Source: a virus
Direction: 5' to 3' (one strand)
DNA: 40,215 bases
IMG/VR virus record: IMGVR_UViG_3300042516_005302
Span: 1 to 40,215 of that record
Numbering within the stretch: position 1 is the stretch's first letter; each line of letters starts with the position of its first letter. The notes below the pieces were generated by a model. It was not told the origin of the DNA, did no database searches, and saw only the letters and a list, made by a program, of their open reading frames with translations. The translations under genes were made by a program, and so were the position numbers. Shown in pieces: positions 972 through 24,052 of the stretch.

Positions 972-2782
972 AAAAAGTAAATTTTAAAGAGGTAGAAATT
1001 AAAAATTTTCTCTCTATTGGAAATAGTCCTGTTAAATTAGAATTCAAACCAGGACTCCATATTATAACAGGAATCAATCGCGATAAGATTGATCGCCGGA
1101 ATGGTATTGGTAAGACCTCTGTTATTGAATCCATTTACTTTGCTATTTTTGGAAGTACCATGAGAGAACTTAAAAAAGATCTTATTCCAAATACGTATAC
1201 AAATGGAACCTGTGAAGTCAAATTAACCTTTGATGTTATTCAAAATAATAATGCACATACGTATAAGATTGTTCGAACATTAAATCCATCAAAATTATCT
1301 TTATTCTGCGATGGTAAAGATGTTACTCGAGATTCTATTAAAAATACAGAAGAAGATATTTTTAATACATTAAATGCATCACCATCTATTTTTGAAAATT
1401 GTGTTATCATGACATTGAATAACACTGTGCCATTCATGGCAAAATCAAAAGTAGAAAAAAGAAAATTTATTGAAGGCATTTTTAATCTAGAAGTATTTTC
1501 TCAAATGCTTTCTCTTCTTCGCGAAGAATTTAGTGATCATAAAAGAATCTATGAGATTGAATTAACAAAATTTGAAGAAGCTCAAAAGACGAAAGATAAT
1601 CTAGAGAATCAAAAGCAAACAATTCTTGATACAAGAAAACAAAAAATTTCAACTTACTTAGCTCGTAAAGAAAATAACTCTTCTGAAAAAATCAAATTAA
1701 TTGAACAATTAGAAGAGCATATTGATATTGATGAAAATTCAATTAATGAACAAGTAAAGAAATTAGAGGAAGGATTAATCCAATGTGATCAAAAGATTGA
1801 AAAATTTACAGAAGCTAAATCAAAGATTACTACAACAGTTGCTCAATTACAACAAAAATTAAGTAATATCGGTACAAATAAAAACACATGCCCGGTTTGC
1901 TTAAAGCCAGTTACTGAACACGATAAAGAAGAATTAGAAAAAGAAAAGAGTAACATTCAAGTAGAAATCAATAATTTAGATGAAAAATTATTGACATGTA
2001 CTGATGGATTAGCTTCTCTTAAAAAGAAGAAACCAACCATTCGTATTGCTATTGATAAACTCAATTTAAAACTTAATGAAATTAAGTTATTAGAACAAAA
2101 GAAAATTAATATCAATGATAGAATTAAACAATTAGATGAATGGCTAATTCAATTAGATGATGATATTGAATCATTGAAATCGAATAACACAGATGTAGAC
2201 GATATTATTGTTGATATGATTAACCGAGTAGAAGCTGCAAGAGAAATTGTTAATAAGCACAAGACACATCTTAATTTGCTTGAAACTATTAAGTATATTG
2301 TTTCAGAAGAAGGGGTCAAGTCTTATATCGTTAATAAAATTTTAGCATTATTCAATTCTATTTTAATGTCTTACCTTCGTAAGATGGATGCAAATTGTTC
2401 ATGTTTCTTTAATGAATATTTTGAAGAAGAAATCATTAATGAAAAGAATAAAATTTGTTCTTACTTTAATTTCTCAGGCGCCGAAAGAAAGAATATGGAT
2501 TTTGCTTGTCTCTTTACGTTCATGGACATGCGACGACTTCAGGGTGACGTTGTTTATAATATTTCTATCTATGATGAATTGTTTGATTCTTCTTTAGATG
2601 AAAAGGGTGTAGAATTAGTTACAAATATTTTAAAAGATCGTGTTCATACCCATAATGAATGTGTAATGGTTATTTCGCATCGAAAAGAAAGTATTCAGCA
2701 TGCTACTGGTGACGTAATCTTCTTAGAGAAGAAAAATGGTGTTACATCAAAGATTGATTATAATCCTTTTTTGGATAATTAA
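968..2782 (+). CDS. 46: gp46-like recombination ATPase (SbcC/Rad50 family)
   Basis: SMC-like ATPase partner of gp47, 604 aa (T4 gp46 is about 560). The Walker A loop is expanded and ends in NGIGKTS (residues 45-51). Two long coiled-coil arms rich in K, E and Q flank a CPVC zinc hook (cysteines about 308 and 311). The ABC signature is SGAERKN near residue 503, and Walker B plus D-loop read ISIYDELF...SLDEKG near 530-548. All parts of a functional Rad50-type protein are present. It overlaps the gp47 stop by 4 nt and is followed after 8 nt by a glycosyltransferase gene. The expected role is ATP-gated control of the gp47 nuclease. Confidence 0.94.
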   Translation: MKKVNFKEVEIKNFLSIGNSPVKLEFKPGLHIITGINRDKIDRRNGIGKTSVIESIYFAIFGSTMRELKKDLIPNTYTNGTCEVKLTFDVIQNNNAHTYKIVRTLNPSKLSLFCDGKDVTRDSIKNTEEDIFNTLNASPSIFENCVIMTLNNTVPFMAKSKVEKRKFIEGIFNLEVFSQMLSLLREEFSDHKRIYEIELTKFEEAQKTKDNLENQKQTILDTRKQKISTYLARKENNSSEKIKLIEQLEEHIDIDENSINEQVKKLEEGLIQCDQKIEKFTEAKSKITTTVAQLQQKLSNIGTNKNTCPVCLKPVTEHDKEELEKEKSNIQVEINNLDEKLLTCTDGLASLKKKKPTIRIAIDKLNLKLNEIKLLEQKKININDRIKQLDEWLIQLDDDIESLKSNNTDVDDIIVDMINRVEAAREIVNKHKTHLNLLETIKYIVSEEGVKSYIVNKILALFNSILMSYLRKMDANCSCFFNEYFEEEIINEKNKICSYFNFSGAERKNMDFACLFTFMDMRRLQGDVVYNISIYDELFDSSLDEKGVELVTNILKDRVHTHNECVMVISHRKESIQHATGDVIFLEKKNGVTSKIDYNPFLDN

Positions 2783-2790
2783 TCTTTAGG

Positions 2791-3987
2791 ATGTTCACAC
2801 CGAAAATTAATACAATGCCCATGGGCCTGCAACCAACAGGCCAACCAGCACAGGCGCAAGCCCCAAAATCAGAACACGCCCCAGAAGATCTCATGAGGGT
2901 TGTTCATTATAATGCAGACCATTCTGGTTGTGGTCTCTGGCGTATGTCATGGCCAGCACATCTTATTAACTTCCATAATAAGGCAATGATTACTGAGTCC
3001 ACAGTAATGATTACTGATCCAAGATGGTATCAAAATGTAAAAGCTATTCGTGTACAAAGGCAAGCTACACCTCATCAATTACAATTCGTAAAATTCTTAA
3101 AGAGCATTCAAAATGAAATTGGATTTAAATTAATCTATGAAGTAGATGATGTTATCTTCCGTGAAGACATTCCCGATTACAATAAGTTCAAAACAGCTTT
3201 CGTAGCAGATGAGATTAGACAAAGTGCTATTGAGATTATTAATCTCTGCGACGAAATGACGGTAACTTGTGATTATATGAAAGAACTGTATCGTGAACGT
3301 ACAGGTAAGAATGAAATCACAGTTATTCCAAATTTCGTACCAAGATTCTGGATGGGTAATTATTTCAGCGAAGCAAAGGTATCTCGTAATTATGATAAAC
3401 ATAAGAAGAAGCCTCGTGTATTGTATGCAGGTTCTGGTGCACACTTTGATGTAGAAAATCGTGTAGGTCAAAAGGATGACTTTGAGCATGTATTAAAGGC
3501 AGTGATTGATTCCCGTAAGAAATATCAATGGGTATTCATTGGTGCATTCCCATTAGCCTTGCGTCCTTATATCCAAAATGGTGATATTGAATTCCATCCA
3601 TGGCAGAAACTTTATGACTATCCTAAGAAGATTTCTGATTTAGAAATCCAAATGTCTGTTGCTCCATTACAAAATAATAGCTTTAATAAAGCTAAATCAG
3701 ACTTGAAATATATCGAGGCATGTTGTTATGGAATTCCAGTAGCTTGTCAAGATATGGAAACTTATAAAGATGCCGAAGTCAAATTTAAGTCAGGTGACGA
3801 AATGTTAGATTGTATTGCAAGAGAACTAGGCAGAGCCGGGCATTATAAGAATCAAGCCATTCAAAGATATAAGGTCGCAGAGAATCGTTTCTTAGAACAT
3901 GATCGTAATTTGGATTGTTATATGGAATTATATAAGTATCCTTATCGCGATCAAAACCGCGTCAATTTGAGACGATATAATCCTTGA
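2791..3987 (+). CDS. Glycosyltransferase, GT-B/GT4-like
   Basis: 398 aa. After a low-complexity Pro/Ala/Gln-rich N-terminus (about residues 1-30) comes a GT-B-type protein: VVHYNADHSGCGLWRM near residue 38, YEVDDVIF near 113, ITVIPNFVP near 172, VLYAGSG near 210 and a C-terminal donor-site-like stretch with KYIEACCYGIPVAC near 308. YEVDDV and PNFV segments are typical of phage and bacterial GT4-like glycosyltransferases. The substrate cannot be told; DNA bases, virion proteins or host surface glycans are all possible. Two nearby in-frame ATGs (2815, 2821) are alternative starts. It lies between gp46 and the polymerase, so it is probably expressed with replication genes. Confidence 0.75.
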   Translation: MFTPKINTMPMGLQPTGQPAQAQAPKSEHAPEDLMRVVHYNADHSGCGLWRMSWPAHLINFHNKAMITESTVMITDPRWYQNVKAIRVQRQATPHQLQFVKFLKSIQNEIGFKLIYEVDDVIFREDIPDYNKFKTAFVADEIRQSAIEIINLCDEMTVTCDYMKELYRERTGKNEITVIPNFVPRFWMGNYFSEAKVSRNYDKHKKKPRVLYAGSGAHFDVENRVGQKDDFEHVLKAVIDSRKKYQWVFIGAFPLALRPYIQNGDIEFHPWQKLYDYPKKISDLEIQMSVAPLQNNSFNKAKSDLKYIEACCYGIPVACQDMETYKDAEVKFKSGDEMLDCIARELGRAGHYKNQAIQRYKVAENRFLEHDRNLDCYMELYKYPYRDQNRVNLRRYNP

Positions 3988-4012
3988 TTATAGTTGCGAT
4001 ACCTATTATCAT
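3984..4012 (+). promoter_or_regulatory. Sigma70-like promoter for gp43 N-terminal gene
   Basis: TTGATT (3984-3989), 17-nt spacer, TATCAT (4007-4012), then exactly 6 nt to the ATG at 4019. With normal sigma70 geometry the transcript would start at the ATG itself. No Shine-Dalgarno sequence is visible. Prediction by eye only. Confidence 0.5.
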
Positions 4013-4018
4013 TTTTCT

Positions 4019-5515
4019 ATGATTGGGTATCGCAACGCTTGTTATAATCCTAAAGACCAAACCGTAGAAATTTATACATGGTCAGACGATGGGGATCGTA
4101 TTTCATATACTACGAAATACCATCCCTATTATTATTATGAAGACAAGAGAGGTAATGAAGTATCAATTTATAATACGCCATTAGCTAAAAGATCTTTTAA
4201 TAATGCATATGAACGCCAGAAATATATTACAGAGTCTGGAATAAAGAGAGTGTATGAACATTTCGGTGCAGTACAACAAGCTTTATTAGATATCTTTTGG
4301 CAACACAATGAAGGGGATGATTTTTCTAAATTTCCTTTAAAGACATACTTTATTGATATTGAGGCTGTATGCAAAGATAGATTTCCTGATCCTACGTTAG
4401 CCGACGTACCAATTAACGTATTAACAATCTATGATTCTTTCTCAAAAAAGTTTTATGCTTGGGGATTAAAACCATATAAAGCTAAGCGTAATGATGTTGT
4501 ATATCATTATTGTAAGTCAGAAGAAGATCTCCTAGCAGGTGTTATTGAATTCTTTAAGAATGATCCACCGGATGTATTATCAGGATGGAACAGTGCAGGA
4601 TTCGATATTCCATACATTATTAATCGATTGAAGAATATCTTCGGTGAAGCGGGTATGAATGAAATCTCACCAGTAAAGAGAACCTATGTAAGAACATTTA
4701 TTGGTACATTCGGTAAGACACAAGCTAGTTATCATATTGATGGTATTTCGTGTGTAGATTATTTAGATGTATACAAGCGATTCTCTTTTGCAAATAGAGA
4801 AAGCTATAAATTAGATAGCATTGGTGAATTAGAATTAGGCGAGAAGAAAGTAGCTATTGAAAAGGATCTGTATGATGTCATGGTAGATGATTGGGATACG
4901 TTTATTGATTATAACATTCAGGACGTAAACATTTTGGTTAAGCTTGAAGAGAAACTACAATTTATTTCTCTTATCAGAATGATTTCATATATCGGGTGTA
5001 CAACCTTTGAAGGTGCTCTAGGCACATTAGGAATTATCACAGGCGCTGCATGCATCCGCGCAAGAAAGAAAGGACAGCGTATTTCAACATTCATTAGAAA
5101 GGAAGATGATGGTTCTAGAAATCCCGGTGCATATGTTGCTGAACCATTAAATGGATTTCAAGAAGATATTGTATCATTTGATGCTAATTCACTATATCCC
5201 AACCTAATGATTTCATTGAACATGTCACCAGAAACAAAGGTAGGCAAGATTATTGAAACAACAGATGAAGATGTAACGGTACAGCATGTTAATGGGCAAG
5301 TCTTTAAATTATCAAAACCAAAATTTGCACAATTTGTTAAGAAAGAGGACATCGCTATCACAAAAGCAAAGGTTCTTTTCTCGCAAAAGAATAAAGGAAT
5401 TGTTCCCGAAATGGTAGATTTTTATTATCAAAAGAGAAAGGCTGTACAGGCAGAGCTTAAAAAATACAAAAAACAATTAGCAGATATTAATAAGGAGATT
5501 GAAAAATTAAAATAA
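4019..5515 (+). CDS. 43A: DNA polymerase gp43, N-terminal half (exonuclease domain and palm motif A)
   Basis: First part of a split family B replicative DNA polymerase, 498 aa. Exo I is FIDIEA (D113, E115), Exo II is WNSAGFD (N191, D196) and Exo III is YNIQD (Y298, D302), so proofreading residues are intact. Polymerase motif A is DANSLYP (388-394), with the first catalytic Asp. The protein ends in a Lys/Glu-rich helix (about 465-498) that corresponds to the first helix of the fingers, then stops. Motifs B and C are absent here and are encoded by the next gene. The two mature parts sum to 866 aa, close to the roughly 900 of T4/RB69 gp43. Activity must require assembly with the second polypeptide. 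Confidence 0.95.
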   Translation: MIGYRNACYNPKDQTVEIYTWSDDGDRISYTTKYHPYYYYEDKRGNEVSIYNTPLAKRSFNNAYERQKYITESGIKRVYEHFGAVQQALLDIFWQHNEGDDFSKFPLKTYFIDIEAVCKDRFPDPTLADVPINVLTIYDSFSKKFYAWGLKPYKAKRNDVVYHYCKSEEDLLAGVIEFFKNDPPDVLSGWNSAGFDIPYIINRLKNIFGEAGMNEISPVKRTYVRTFIGTFGKTQASYHIDGISCVDYLDVYKRFSFANRESYKLDSIGELELGEKKVAIEKDLYDVMVDDWDTFIDYNIQDVNILVKLEEKLQFISLIRMISYIGCTTFEGALGTLGIITGAACIRARKKGQRISTFIRKEDDGSRNPGAYVAEPLNGFQEDIVSFDANSLYPNLMISLNMSPETKVGKIIETTDEDVTVQHVNGQVFKLSKPKFAQFVKKEDIAITKAKVLFSQKNKGIVPEMVDFYYQKRKAVQAELKKYKKQLADINKEIEKLK

Positions 5516-5525
5516 ACAACATAAT
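5499..5525 (+). promoter_or_regulatory. Sigma70-like promoter for gp43 C-terminal gene
   Basis: TTGAAA (5499-5504), 15-nt spacer, CATAAT (5520-5525), then 6 nt to ATG 5532. It lies across the end of the first polymerase gene and would give a leaderless transcript for the second half. The short spacer makes this only moderately convincing. Confidence 0.4.
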
Positions 5526-5531
5526 AAACAC

Positions 5532-7389
5532 ATGGACATAGATGCATTAATTAAACGAAAGCAAGAATTAGAAGATACTATTCTTCGATTGAATGCTAAA
5601 CAAATGAGCATTAAAATTCTTATTAACTCTGCATACGGATTAACCAATTAAGTCCCTTTACTAAGTGATTAGTAAAGCAAATCTCTTTAATTGCTGGAAA
5701 CCTAAAGTATATACCATGGCAATCAGCAGCGAAGCTTCAAAAGAAGAACGTTCAACGACTATCACGAAAGTGAGTAGATACTAGTGTATCGAAAAGGGAG
5801 ACACCTCAACTGAGGTGATGATATAGTCTCATCTATATCGAAAGATATAGCAGCTTATATAAGCGCAGATAGACTAACGATCTATTTGGAAGATAAATGA
5901 TTTCGGTAATAAGCACGCACCTATAGGTGATGATGACATTGCTTCATCAATTACATTGACAGGCCAAGCTGTCATCAAGCAAGCTAGAGAAATTGCAAAG
6001 AAATATGTGAGTAATGTCACTGGTATTACTGATGAACGCACATTGGATACGGTCGCGATATATGGAGATACAGATAGTGTAGTCGGTGATACATTAATTC
6101 AAACACATGACCATAAAGTAAAAATTGAAGAATTATATAAAGAATATCAACACTTAGATCAACAACATAGTCAATATGGTCATGAAATCATTGATGTATC
6201 AAATAAATCGTTAATGATTTTAACATTCAATTCAAAAACACAATTACCATATATGGGAAAAGTAAAGAGTTTGATACGACACAAAGTATCAAAAGCAAAA
6301 TATGAAGTTGTTGTTGGGGGTAAATCTGTAACAATGACTGAAGATCACGGGTGCGTGGTATATCGTAATAACGAACTGCTTCGTGTTTCGCCCAGAGAAA
6401 TCGACACAAACGATATAATGGTTTATACTACTAATGGCTATGACAAATCATATTCAAATCCTATTGTACATCACACAGGCCATTTTAATGATGAATATGT
6501 TTATGATATTGAAATGCATTCTGATACAGAACATACATTTTTTGCTAATGATATTTTAATACATAATTCTTGTTATCTTTCTTTGAAGCTATTGCCGATT
6601 GAATTTTCAAAAAATGGTATCGTTACTGCTGATGGTTATAAACACGCGGAAGCATTAGAAAAGACATTAAATGAAGAAATTCAAATTTGGGCTAAGAATG
6701 CTTTAAATTCAAAAGATTGTCGCTTAGCATTCAAGAGAGAAGCAATGGCAGATGTGGGGCTCTTCTTAGAAAAGAAGCGCTATGTATTACATGTATTAGA
6801 TGATGAGGGTCTGCAAGTTAATAAATGGAAATACACTGGTGTTGATGTAGTAAGAACAACAATGCCTAAGAACGTTAAACCATATGTAAAAAAGATCATC
6901 GAAACAATGTTAACTACAAAATCATGCGCCAAGACAAATGAAGTCTTAAAAGAAGCATATGACGTGTTCCAAGCATTGCCTATTGAAGACGTATCAAGAA
7001 CCAGTGGCATTCGTGGTTATGAAAAATATGCCAATATGTGTCATGATTTTAAAGTAAGTAAAGGCATGCCTAATCATGTCAAGGCTGCTTATTTTCATAA
7101 TATTATTTTAGATAAATTAAACTTATCAGGTAAACATGAGAAGATTGCTTCAGGTGATAAGATCAAATACTTCTATGTTCAACAACCAAATAAGTATGGA
7201 ATTAATTGTATTGGATTTAAGTATGTCTTTCCTGAAGAGTTTAAATCAATCTTTTTACCGGATAGAGAATTATTATTTGAAAAGATTGTATATGCTGCTG
7301 TTGAAAGATTTTATCAATGTGTCAATTGGACACCTAGAAAACCAAGTGAGCAAGTCTTGTTCGAATTAGATGATTTATTCGGTGAATAA
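5532..7389 (+). CDS. 43B: DNA polymerase gp43, C-terminal half (palm motifs B/C, thumb); join 5532-5640, 5900-7389, with intein
   Basis: Second part of the split polymerase. The mRNA needs removal of a group I intron (5641-5899): exon 1 encodes 36 codons ending INSAYG plus one base, exon 2 restores INSAYGYFGNKHAPIGDDD, which is motif B. The spliced frame is 1599 nt (533 codons including stop), an exact multiple of three. The precursor contains an intein (6076-6567) inside motif C; its removal gives YGDTDSCYLSL, with both catalytic Asps. The mature chain would be 368 aa. The C-terminus (LFELDDLFGE) is hydrophobic and acidic, as in clamp-binding tails of T4-type polymerases. Unspliced RNA would give only a 39-residue peptide ending at 5650. 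Confidence 0.93.
5641..5899 (+). ncRNA. ORF-less group I intron in the polymerase gene (motif B)
   Basis: 259-nt self-splicing intron. P1 pairs exon GGAU (5637-5640) with GUCC (5652-5655), giving the U.G pair at the 5' splice site. P2 is a 9-bp hairpin (5657-5679). P/Q elements are TTGCTGGAAA (5691-5700) and ATCAGCAGC (5722-5730), pairing as P4. The R element GTTCAACGACTAT (5750-5762) pairs with S ATAGTC (5823-5828) as P7. A later hairpin (CTATATC-GAAA-GATATAG) fits P9. The terminal G is 5899. Splicing at these points restores the frame and the conserved residues of motif B. There is no endonuclease ORF inside. The exact splice points are inferred from protein alignment and the terminal-G rule. 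Confidence 0.9.
6076..6567 (+). other. Mini-intein in polymerase motif C (164 aa, no endonuclease domain)
   Basis: In-frame protein splicing element between YGDTD and SCYLSL. Block A starts with Ser1 (SVVGDTLI). Block B is TMTEDHG (TxxH type, about residues 87-92). Block F is YDIEMHSDTEHTFFAND (about 143-159), and the element ends ILIHN followed by Ser+1. First residue Ser, penultimate His, terminal Asn and the +1 nucleophile are all present, so it looks competent for splicing. At 164 residues it holds only the splicing fold. The site, directly before the Ser after the catalytic Asp pair, is the one used by some archaeal family B polymerase inteins. Confidence 0.92.
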
Positions 7390-8962: not shown

Positions 8963-9376
8963 ATGCAAAATGATACAGATTTAATCTTCGAAGCTTATAA
9001 AGAAATCTATTCAGAAGGATGGAAAGATTGGGTTGCAGGTGCGGGTATGGCACTTGCAGCTGCAATGGGAGTAGGTGCTATTAAGCATGCCGCTACAGAA
9101 TTTAAAACTGGATTACCTTCGTTAAATGTACCAAAGCAATTGGATTCAAACAAAGTAGATACATATCTCGGGAAAGTAGCACATATTGCTGGCCTAGATT
9201 TGTCAAAAGCTGACGATTCAGATCGAGAAATGCTGAGTGGTAATTTAAAGAAACATTACGAAGCATTGAAAATGATTAGACAACATGGTACTGAATCTCA
9301 ACAAAAGTCTGCAGCTCATATCATGCAAACGATGAAAAATGTAGCAGGTAATAAATATAATCTAGAGAGATTATAG
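8963..9376 (+). CDS. Late protein, putative internal head protein, function unknown
   Basis: 137 aa, not recognised by family. The N-terminus MQNDTDLIFEAYKEIY resembles T4 capsid-targeting peptides and contains IFE-A (residues 8-11), fitting the (L/I)xE-(A/G/S) prohead protease rule. A hydrophobic Ala/Gly-rich segment (about residues 24-41: VAGAGMALAAAMGVG) follows, then a Lys-rich helical C-terminus with mostly polar residues. It sits just after uvsX but has its own late promoter, so it is expressed with virion genes rather than with replication genes. Packaging in the capsid is an inference from the N-terminus and promoter; a small membrane-active protein is the main alternative because of the hydrophobic segment. 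Confidence 0.7.
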   Translation: MQNDTDLIFEAYKEIYSEGWKDWVAGAGMALAAAMGVGAIKHAATEFKTGLPSLNVPKQLDSNKVDTYLGKVAHIAGLDLSKADDSDREMLSGNLKKHYEALKMIRQHGTESQQKSAAHIMQTMKNVAGNKYNLERL

Positions 9377-9413: not shown

Positions 9414-10157
9414 ATGACTAATACTCATGTGGTTATTCCTTTTTCTGGGGGTATGGATTCCTCCGTACTTGTACATCTGGCTCTATCAGAAGGATACTTT
9501 GTACATGTTTTATCCTTTAATTATGGCCAACGGCATTCACAAGAATTAGATTGTGCTGCTAAACAAATTCAAAAATTAAAGTCATTATATCCTAATTTGA
9601 AGTCATATAAGACTATCGATGTTTCTTATATTAAAGATATTGCACCCACATCATCATTAACCAATAATGATATTGAAACACCGGATGTACGTAAAATTAA
9701 AGGCGAAGCACAACCAAAATCATATGTTCCGAATCGCAATATGATGTTTCTATCTATCGCAGCAGCTTGGGCAGAATCAATAGGTGCATCAGAAGTATGG
9801 CATGGTGCTGCACAAGCAGATTCATTAGCAGGTTATTGGGACGGATCACCGGAATTCTTAGAATCAATTAATAATGTTCTTTCTTTGAATAGAGAAAAGA
9901 GAATTGAAATCAAAGCACCATTAATTGAATTAAGTAAAGCAGAAATTATTAAATTAGGTGTAAAGAATAAAGTAGACTTTGGATTGACCTACACCTGTTA
10001 TTCGGGCGAAGAAAAGCCAGATGCTTATTCAGCATCATCATCTTTAAGATTACAAGGCTTTATAGAAGCAGGTTATAAAGACCCACTTCAATATAAACAA
10101 CAAGATCAATTAGAAGAAGTATATAGTAAAAGAGGATGTAAAGAAATTATCCTCTAA
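9414..10157 (+). CDS. queC: QueC-like PP-loop ATPase (7-cyano-7-deazaguanine synthase family), zinc site lost
   Basis: 247 aa. The PP-loop FSGGMDSSV (10-18) and the QueC signatures SFNYGQRHSQEL (34-45) and YVPNRNMMFLS (104-114) identify the family, whose standard members make preQ0 from carboxydeazaguanine. Two regions differ from standard QueC. The substrate region that usually reads GYPDCRPEF is GYWDGSPEF (140-148). The zinc cluster C-x7-C-x2-C-x2-C keeps only C195; the other positions are D203, S206 and S209. The enzyme therefore may not be a conventional preQ0 synthase. No queD, queE, folE or transglycosylase gene is in the window, but a class II glutamine amidotransferase lies about 1.3 kb downstream. 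Its 3' end overlaps the convergent reverse-strand gene by 11 nt. Confidence 0.88.
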   Translation: MTNTHVVIPFSGGMDSSVLVHLALSEGYFVHVLSFNYGQRHSQELDCAAKQIQKLKSLYPNLKSYKTIDVSYIKDIAPTSSLTNNDIETPDVRKIKGEAQPKSYVPNRNMMFLSIAAAWAESIGASEVWHGAAQADSLAGYWDGSPEFLESINNVLSLNREKRIEIKAPLIELSKAEIIKLGVKNKVDFGLTYTCYSGEEKPDAYSASSSLRLQGFIEAGYKDPLQYKQQDQLEEVYSKRGCKEIIL

Positions 10158-22984: not shown

Positions 22985-24052
22985 ATGTCCGGAAATGCAC
23001 GTTTTCATGATAAATTACACAGAGCAAACCACCACACGTTATCTACCAGTGGATTGCTGGACAGTGCATATGATCCTATAGCTTCACCAGATTTTCCTTT
23101 TAGAGGTGATTTTATATTAAGTGGCGGATTGTCGGCATTGGGTGGATTAACTGCAAATAATTTAAATATCCGTAGTGAAATTACAATAGATGGTAATAGC
23201 ACGACCCAAAACCAAACTATCGTTGGCAAATTAAAATTGTCTCTTCCAAGTTACGGTGGTACAGTAATATACGCCCAAAATTCTACGCCAAATCCTTTAG
23301 ATTATTCACTTACATTAAACTATGAAAACGGAGTATTTGTGTCACATGGTTTAATTGTAAATGGCACATTATCAGCAAATTTTCCAGAATCCGGCGGCAC
23401 AATACCAACTGCTAATGATATATCAAATGCATATGTAACACTCAAAACAAATAGTGCTACTAATTGGTCTTATCAAGGAGCTGATCTTAAGGCTTTATCA
23501 TCTAACTGGCAAAGTACATATACAACTGTAACTGCTAATAGTGCTACTAATTGGTCTTATCAAGGAGCTGATCTTAAGGCTTTATCATCTAACTGGCAAA
23601 GTACATATACAACTGTAACTGCTAATAGTGGGAATTGGTTATCCAAAACAAGTATTGTATCAGCTGCATCTGCAAGTTTTAATAATTTATCTGCAGGATA
23701 TGTGTTGTTAAAATCTTATGCCCAGACACGTGTAATTGCTAGTAATCCTAGCGGATTGGTTCCTATCGACTTATCTTTAGGGACTGTGTTTACTCTAGAC
23801 CTTACTAATAGTGTATCAACAGGATTTTCGATAGTCAATGTACCTGTCGGCGTCAATTCATTTAATTTATTGTTGACTCAAGATGGTACTGGATCTAAAA
23901 CAGTAAATTTTAATTTCATTTCAAAGACACTCAGATGGAGTGGTGGTGCACCTACTATGACATCAACAGCTAATGCTACTGATATATACTCTTTTATGAC
24001 TGTCGACGGCAATACATGGTATGGGTCAGTAATCGGCCAGAATTTCGTGTAG
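22985..24052 (+). CDS. Fibre-like structural protein with tandem repeats
   Basis: 355 aa. Rich in Ser, Thr, Asn and Gly with few charged residues, typical of trimeric fibre or head-decoration proteins. The centre holds two identical 29-residue repeats (NSATNWSYQG...TTVTA). The C-terminal part (SLGTVFTLDLTNSVSTGFSI, NSFNLLLTQDGTG, TDIYSFMTVDGNTWYG) matches the beta-structured tails seen in many T4-like virion structural proteins. Perfect late promoter. Divergent from the lectin/Ig-like gene, with 31 nt between the two start codons. Exact virion location is unknown. Confidence 0.78.
   Translation: MSGNARFHDKLHRANHHTLSTSGLLDSAYDPIASPDFPFRGDFILSGGLSALGGLTANNLNIRSEITIDGNSTTQNQTIVGKLKLSLPSYGGTVIYAQNSTPNPLDYSLTLNYENGVFVSHGLIVNGTLSANFPESGGTIPTANDISNAYVTLKTNSATNWSYQGADLKALSSNWQSTYTTVTANSATNWSYQGADLKALSSNWQSTYTTVTANSGNWLSKTSIVSAASASFNNLSAGYVLLKSYAQTRVIASNPSGLVPIDLSLGTVFTLDLTNSVSTGFSIVNVPVGVNSFNLLLTQDGTGSKTVNFNFISKTLRWSGGAPTMTSTANATDIYSFMTVDGNTWYGSVIGQNFV
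23450..23623 (+). repeat. Two perfect 87-bp tandem repeats inside the fibre-like gene
   Basis: Units 23450-23536 and 23537-23623 are identical base for base as read; a third unit begins at 23624 (AATAGTG) and then diverges. Each encodes 29 residues, in frame. The lack of silent differences indicates a recent duplication. Confidence 0.95.

Follow-up and report, generated by a model that had tools for sequence, protein, structure and literature searches.

The division of gene 43 into the cistrons gp43A and gp43B has been described for the Aeromonas phages 25 and 44RR (Petrov, Ratnayaka and Karam 2010, as related in excerpts of PMC2993671 and PMC2988022). According to the same excerpts, 43B of phage 25 also contains a group I intron that lacks an endonuclease, accompanied by a freestanding endonuclease on which the intron is predicted to rely; no intein is mentioned in these excerpts for either phage. 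A split polB with an intein is known from MIJ3 (PMC6892783) and the PolB1 intein of Aes123 is located at DTD|S (PMC11923092). An intron and an intein occur together in SPbeta nrdE and in the terminase gene of Campylobacter phage IBB_35, although these are other genes, and a cistron split alongside both elements is not reported in the excerpted parts of the sources (PMC3322345, PMC3653736). All three kinds of interruption are annotated in the polymerase gene of Aeromonas phage Aes508 (JN377894), which consists of gp43A, a Seg-like GIY-YIG endonuclease, gp43B with a group I intron and an N-intein, a VSR endonuclease and a C-intein; Aes512 and Aes517 match this locus over its full length. An earlier note on the DNA described here knew of no well-described case of all three in one enzyme, a view that the Aes508 annotation overturns. 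The arrangement is thus of a kind already known, since the triple combination is on record in Aeromonas viruses and its parts are published. What the present locus adds is an endonuclease-free state, a contiguous mini-intein, a different intron position, and empty and partial sister alleles.

Architecture of the polymerase locus

The window, by which we mean the whole stretch of 40,215 nucleotides that was analysed, is a 40-kb virus contig with 32% G+C. Inspection of its open reading frames reveals T4-type neighbours of polB, including genes for a Rad50-like SbcC, a UvsX/RecA-like protein, a replicative helicase, terminase and tail sheath. The polymerase gene itself, encoding gp43 of a T4-type phage, occupies two cistrons, and the three interruptions that the earlier note had recognised at three conserved elements (a gene split, an intron at motif B and an intein at motif C) are all present, with approximately 1.05 kb between the split and the end of the intein. 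The features of the locus are as follows.

4019..5515, + strand: gp43A, 498 aa, exonuclease domain and N-terminal part of the palm and fingers of a B-family DNA polymerase
5516..5531, + strand: inter-cistron gap of 16 nt, endonuclease ORF gone
5532..5640, + strand: gp43B exon 1, starting MDIDALIKRKQ and containing motif B (INSAYG); it ends in the U that precedes the 5′ splice site
5641..5899, + strand: group I intron, 259 nt, no ORF; assigned from Rfam RF00028, covariation and intron-less relatives
5900..6075, + strand: gp43B exon 2, the N-extein, reaching to YGDTD (motif C)
6076..6567, + strand: mini-intein, 164 aa, S1 to H163-N164, no endonuclease domain
6568..7389, + strand: gp43B C-extein, thumb and end of the palm to the stop codon; Pfam DNA_pol_B

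The material consists of metagenomic contigs, which are incomplete genomes. Assembly error is unlikely since three other contigs (L001, L002 and L009) share all three interruptions. Removal of the intron and the intein in silico yields the uninterrupted sequence of the relatives L003 and L005, and the predicted mature product comprises gp43A (498 aa) and a gp43B of 368 aa.

The window and Aes508 both carry a split, an intron and an intein in one polB, at the same places, namely the fingers hairpin that also contains the gp43A/gp43B break of Aes508, motif B, and motif C at DTD|S. The two loci differ in that the window lacks endonucleases and has a contiguous mini-intein where Aes508 has a split intein. 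Furthermore, in the codon alignment the intron of the window lies 3 nt upstream of that of Aes508, interrupting the first codon after YG rather than the second, with the Aes508 position being deduced from its P1 pairing (GGAGCUU with GGAGCUCC). Where a split-site endonuclease is present in the clade of the window it is antisense, whereas that of Aes508 is in the sense orientation. Relative to phages 25 and 44RR, the endonuclease has been lost in the window. Among more distant systems, polB of Tenacibaculum phage PTm1 resembles the window in having both a fingers split and an intein at DTD|S, and Campylobacter phage F379 has an intein at the same site in a gene with unsplit fingers. In both PTm1 and F379 a VSR-like gene lies between the intein halves, and no intron was detected in either polB.

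Other features of the contig were noted in passing. A QueC-like gene (7-deazaguanine pathway) is found beside the replication genes at 9414-10157, and phage F379 also has a QueC gene, directly ahead of its polymerase. A small gene at 8963-9376 shows 40-62% identity to the uninterrupted L005 while its neighbours show 86-94%, indicating local replacement, and the product of 22985-24052 is predicted to be structural and contains an internal repeat (NWSYQGADLKALSSNWQSTYTTVTANSAT). Gene starts in the window (for example those at 4019, 5532 and 7860) lack a clear Shine-Dalgarno sequence and are preceded by A/T-rich stretches. Such starts resemble those of Bacteroidota, which gives a hint as to the host. 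Since starts in the window lack a Shine-Dalgarno sequence in general, its absence ahead of gp43B says little.

The gene split

gp43A matches the Pfam families DNA_pol_B_exo1 (1.8e-18) and DNA_pol_B (1e-11) and the PHROG 262 DNA polymerase family (7e-116), and its C-terminus is an extended fingers helix (...KKYKKQLADINKEIEKLK). The gp43A stop codon (5513-5515) is followed 16 nt downstream by the gp43B ATG (5532) in a different frame, whereas unsplit relatives have one continuous reading frame across this position. The gene is therefore split in the manner of 44RR and 25, with two cistrons, a break in the fingers region and a separate start for each. When gp43B exon 1 is joined to position 5900, there are zero stops and zero frame conflicts.

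The distance from the PEMVD motif to the LNAKQ motif is 37-49 residues in uninterrupted alleles compared with 53-71 in split alleles, these counts deriving from two sets, the second of which reads four residues higher owing to its anchor. Each broken end contributes some of the additional residues, and these appear helical; they suggest that an extended antiparallel coiled coil keeps the two chains together. On this view gp43A and gp43B would associate, probably via their lengthened antiparallel fingers helices.

The group I intron

The Rfam model Intron_gpI (RF00028) scores 114.4 bits at 5631-5850, against a cut-off of 50 bits. The gp43B reading frame meets a stop at 5651, inside the intron, and resumes downstream. 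Boundaries were determined by comparing ten intron-bearing with six intron-less alleles. All intron-bearing alleles have TACGGR-U upstream of the intron, which ends in ...ATG and is followed by AY. Joining the exons gives GGA-TAT-TTC (or GGG-TAC-ATG), which are the codons of the intron-less gene, and the intron therefore spans 5641-5899 (259 nt). The predicted splice product reads ...INSAYG-YFGNKHAPIG, in agreement with the uninterrupted gene, so that the frame is exactly restored. An alternative splice site at 5649/5650 was rejected, since it would add three residues (YGLTNYFGN) where intron-less relatives read YGYFGN, placing the 5′ site at 5640/5641.

The U at the 5′ splice site pairs with a G in P1 and the intron has a terminal G. 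P1 is formed by exon GGAU with GUCC, with the G.U pair at the splice site, and by GGGU with GCCC in L024, L026 and L043, a compensating change. The conserved core (P3-P8, P7 and P9) is present; P3, P4, P6, P7, P8 and P9 were all recognised, with two hairpins between P7 and P3, as in subgroup IA. In the intron alignment 29 of the 65 pairs have changed on both sides, a number reached in 0 of 500 shuffles, P7 is invariant and paired, and 98.1% of pairing cells are standard. The best DNA matches are introns of Staphylococcus and Enterococcus phages, a likeness that shows no more than membership of the common pool of phage group I introns.

The mini-intein

The intein is inserted after YGDTD and the first residue of the C-extein is serine (S-CYLSLK). 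C-extein identity to relatives is 94-100%, whether or not these bear an intein. The intein shows the features of a class 1 Ser1 intein, with nucleophiles at positions 1 and +1, a TxxH block B, a C-terminal HN and a HINT fold. Its motifs (Ser1, TEDH, YVYDIEM, ILIHN and Ser+1) recur, with minor substitutions, in ten contiguous relatives. An AlphaFold model built on the alignment of ten contiguous inteins has a pLDDT of 93.9, and the solved structure that it resembles most closely is the Aes123 PolB1 intein (PDB 9HTH; TM 0.88). This intein is also the best sequence match (1.7e-13) and shares with the window the DTD|S site, Ser1 and Ser+1. The Aes123 intein is naturally split and cysteine-less, whereas that of the window is contiguous and has one cysteine. 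In two other contigs (L084, 5001-5498; L080, 4944-5540) the intein at this site is broken by a stop close to where the endonuclease usually lies, and an endonuclease gene is missing; both are probably naturally split inteins.

Endonucleases and their decay

In L024, L026 and L040 the space between the cistrons contains an antisense ORF of approximately 300 aa with GIY-YIG-like motifs (KPVYIGRG; FIYRIDY...SYAGSKK). Its matches to homing-endonuclease families are weak (LEM-3-like GIY-YIG, E = 0.0087; PHROG homing endonuclease, 4e-5). Remnants are found in L009 and L043. The intein endonuclease is a full VSR-like gene in L008 and L026, is truncated in L009 and is absent from the window. Hence endonucleases of the Aes508 type, at the split site and in the intein, are carried by L024, L026 and L008 and not by the window, and no homologs of either were found elsewhere in its 40 kb. 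A fourth polB insertion, of about 1 kb, was observed at the exonuclease I motif (TIDIEV|) in L043 (2815-3814) and also in L044; it contains an HNH homing endonuclease ORF and has no Rfam intron match. The intein-bearing relatives L076 (3425-3597), L090 (147-1363) and L080 (3488-3543) show further breaks in the part of polB that encodes the exonuclease.

Empty, partial and full alleles in related viruses

Three scans of IMG/VR gave about 80 loci, whose states were mapped with a profile of the uninterrupted protein. They form a near-complete ladder of alleles. Within the group to which the window belongs, the gene is uninterrupted in L003-L007 and L010, L008 carries the intein alone, and the window, L001, L002 and L009 have all three interruptions. 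In a second clade, L025 and L046 are uninterrupted, L024, L043 and L044 have the split and the intron, and L026 has all three together with both endonucleases. Elsewhere, L040 and L042 have the split only, L057 and L058 the split and the intron, and many others are uninterrupted. Interruption states have changed repeatedly along the tree of loci, and the empty, partial and full alleles bear out the suggestion in the earlier note that conserved codons were repeatedly invaded by mobile elements.

Once the calls for L009 (intron) and L042 (split) had been corrected manually by reading the loci, ten have both the split and the intron, two the split only and 62 neither; the intron never occurs without the split (10/10 with split). 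The association has p = 5e-10 in the automatic table, a value that is indicative only as the loci are related. We draw nothing from the association of the intein with the split or the intron, because the intein itself was what led to many of the loci.

Empty alleles are found in backgrounds about 96% identical to the window at the nucleotide level. Comparison of the window with the clean L003 shows approximately 95-98% identity over most of the flanks (2000-5000 and after 6950) and 63-86% in most bins around the interruptions; L002 and the clean L005 show the same pattern of high identity in the flanks and low identity at the interruptions. In trees of distal segments, the window groups with L003 and L004, and L002 with L005-L007. 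In the tree of the 225 nt adjoining the intron and the intein, by contrast, the window, L001 and L002 group together, apart from the clean alleles, which also group together. This conflict is as expected from homing with co-conversion. The direction of each putative conversion event is our reading of the pattern, and clean alleles could have overwritten interrupted ones. Intron similarity between the window and L002 (91-96%) was set aside as a sign of recent transfer, as structural constraint could cause it, and the claim of conversion thus rests on the coding flanks. Since the intein is as old as the divergence of the window and L002 in the flanks, its spread need not be recent in the window's lineage.

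Origin and expression of the interrupted gene

We consider it very probable that a working replicative polymerase gene was entered by two separate mobile modules, both endonucleases of which have since been lost. The first module would be the split together with the group I intron. In this proposal a GIY-YIG-like endonuclease gene that is, or formerly was, located at the fingers hairpin divides the polymerase gene. The endonuclease would probably cleave motif B DNA that lacks the intron, and gene conversion would then carry split and intron along together. That they form one cassette, and that the endonuclease has this specificity, is suggested by co-occurrence, shared tracts and the Aeromonas precedent. 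The second module would be the intein at YGDTD|S, which a VSR-like endonuclease of its own would have spread. Loss of both endonucleases in the window's lineage would have left a gap of 16 nt between the cistrons, an intron without an ORF and a mini-intein. For expression, gp43A and gp43B would be translated separately, the intron would leave by GTP-dependent self-splicing (unspliced mRNA would give a 39-aa peptide only), the intein would excise autocatalytically via S1, N164 and S+1, and the two chains would then associate. Splicing, chain association, endonuclease targets and the direction of transfer are all predictions from comparison of the alleles.

As a tentative extension, the split and intron may constitute a cassette with its own repair, in the form of lengthened helices that make an intermolecular coiled coil, and this plan may have arisen more than once, in Aeromonas phages and in the window's clade. 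With the coiled coil in place, fission of the gene would be tolerated and the split would outlast the endonuclease. If so, the repeated origins would differ in intron position and endonuclease orientation.

An alternative that we regard as improbable is that the split and the intron entered separately, as two of three unrelated insertions, and became associated by chance or shared ancestry. Intron-bearing loci are confined to a few clades, which implies few independent events, perhaps three. However, no intron has been found without a split, the two share one conversion tract, and the Aeromonas precedent pairs them too.

The earlier note had also raised the possibility of a timing device or sensor, in which three ordered steps delay replication or respond to temperature, redox or GTP. 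A full-length catalytic core does require every step, removal of group I introns is established to need a guanosine cofactor, and the intein is still somewhat constrained (dN/dS about 0.2), although the need for splicing accounts for that constraint. Since near-identical viruses carry the gene uninterrupted, and the elements have been gained and lost independently across the clade, we favour stacked selfish elements; nothing that we found indicates regulation and such a role is very unlikely.

The two cistrons might also be connected by frameshifting or ribosome hopping instead of yielding two chains. Such bypassing exists in gene 60 of phage T4, and the gap is only 16 nt in the window and 4 nt in L057 and L058. 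On the other hand, the gap is 47 nt in L042 and up to 227, 331 and 930 nt in other relatives, where it holds reverse-strand ORFs, and every gp43B has its own ATG, making this explanation highly improbable.

Purifying selection was assessed by comparing the window with its interrupted relatives. Against L001, dN/dS is 0.005 for gp43A, 0 for the C-extein (no amino-acid change at a dS of 0.17) and 0.26 for the intein; against L002, it is approximately 0.02 for the exteins and 0.20 for the intein, whose dS resembles that of the exteins. By this measure, the polymerase is retained, and the intein is kept splice-able yet drifts. The intact second polymerase that, according to the earlier note, would make this locus a relic was sought without success in the window and in longer relatives of 77-225 kb, contigs that are not certified complete; the long relatives, including the 204-kb L026 with all three interruptions, contain a single B-family locus, and an A-family polymerase was not seen. 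That the locus is a non-functional relic whose work is done by another polymerase is therefore barely credible, even with the room that incomplete contigs leave for a second gene, given the strong purifying selection on the exteins, the single polymerase locus, and the intact splice sites and catalytic residues.

Implications

Automatic annotation renders this locus as two or three seemingly broken genes where there is one polymerase, which is a caution for annotators. The pairs window/L003, L002/L005 and L008/L010 allow joint homing of the split and the intron, and the cost to the phage of stacking, to be tested. The locus in the window displays what remains once the endonucleases have decayed, and the natural series of empty, partial and full alleles in near-identical backgrounds presents selfish elements accumulating at the codons that are most strongly conserved in an essential enzyme.
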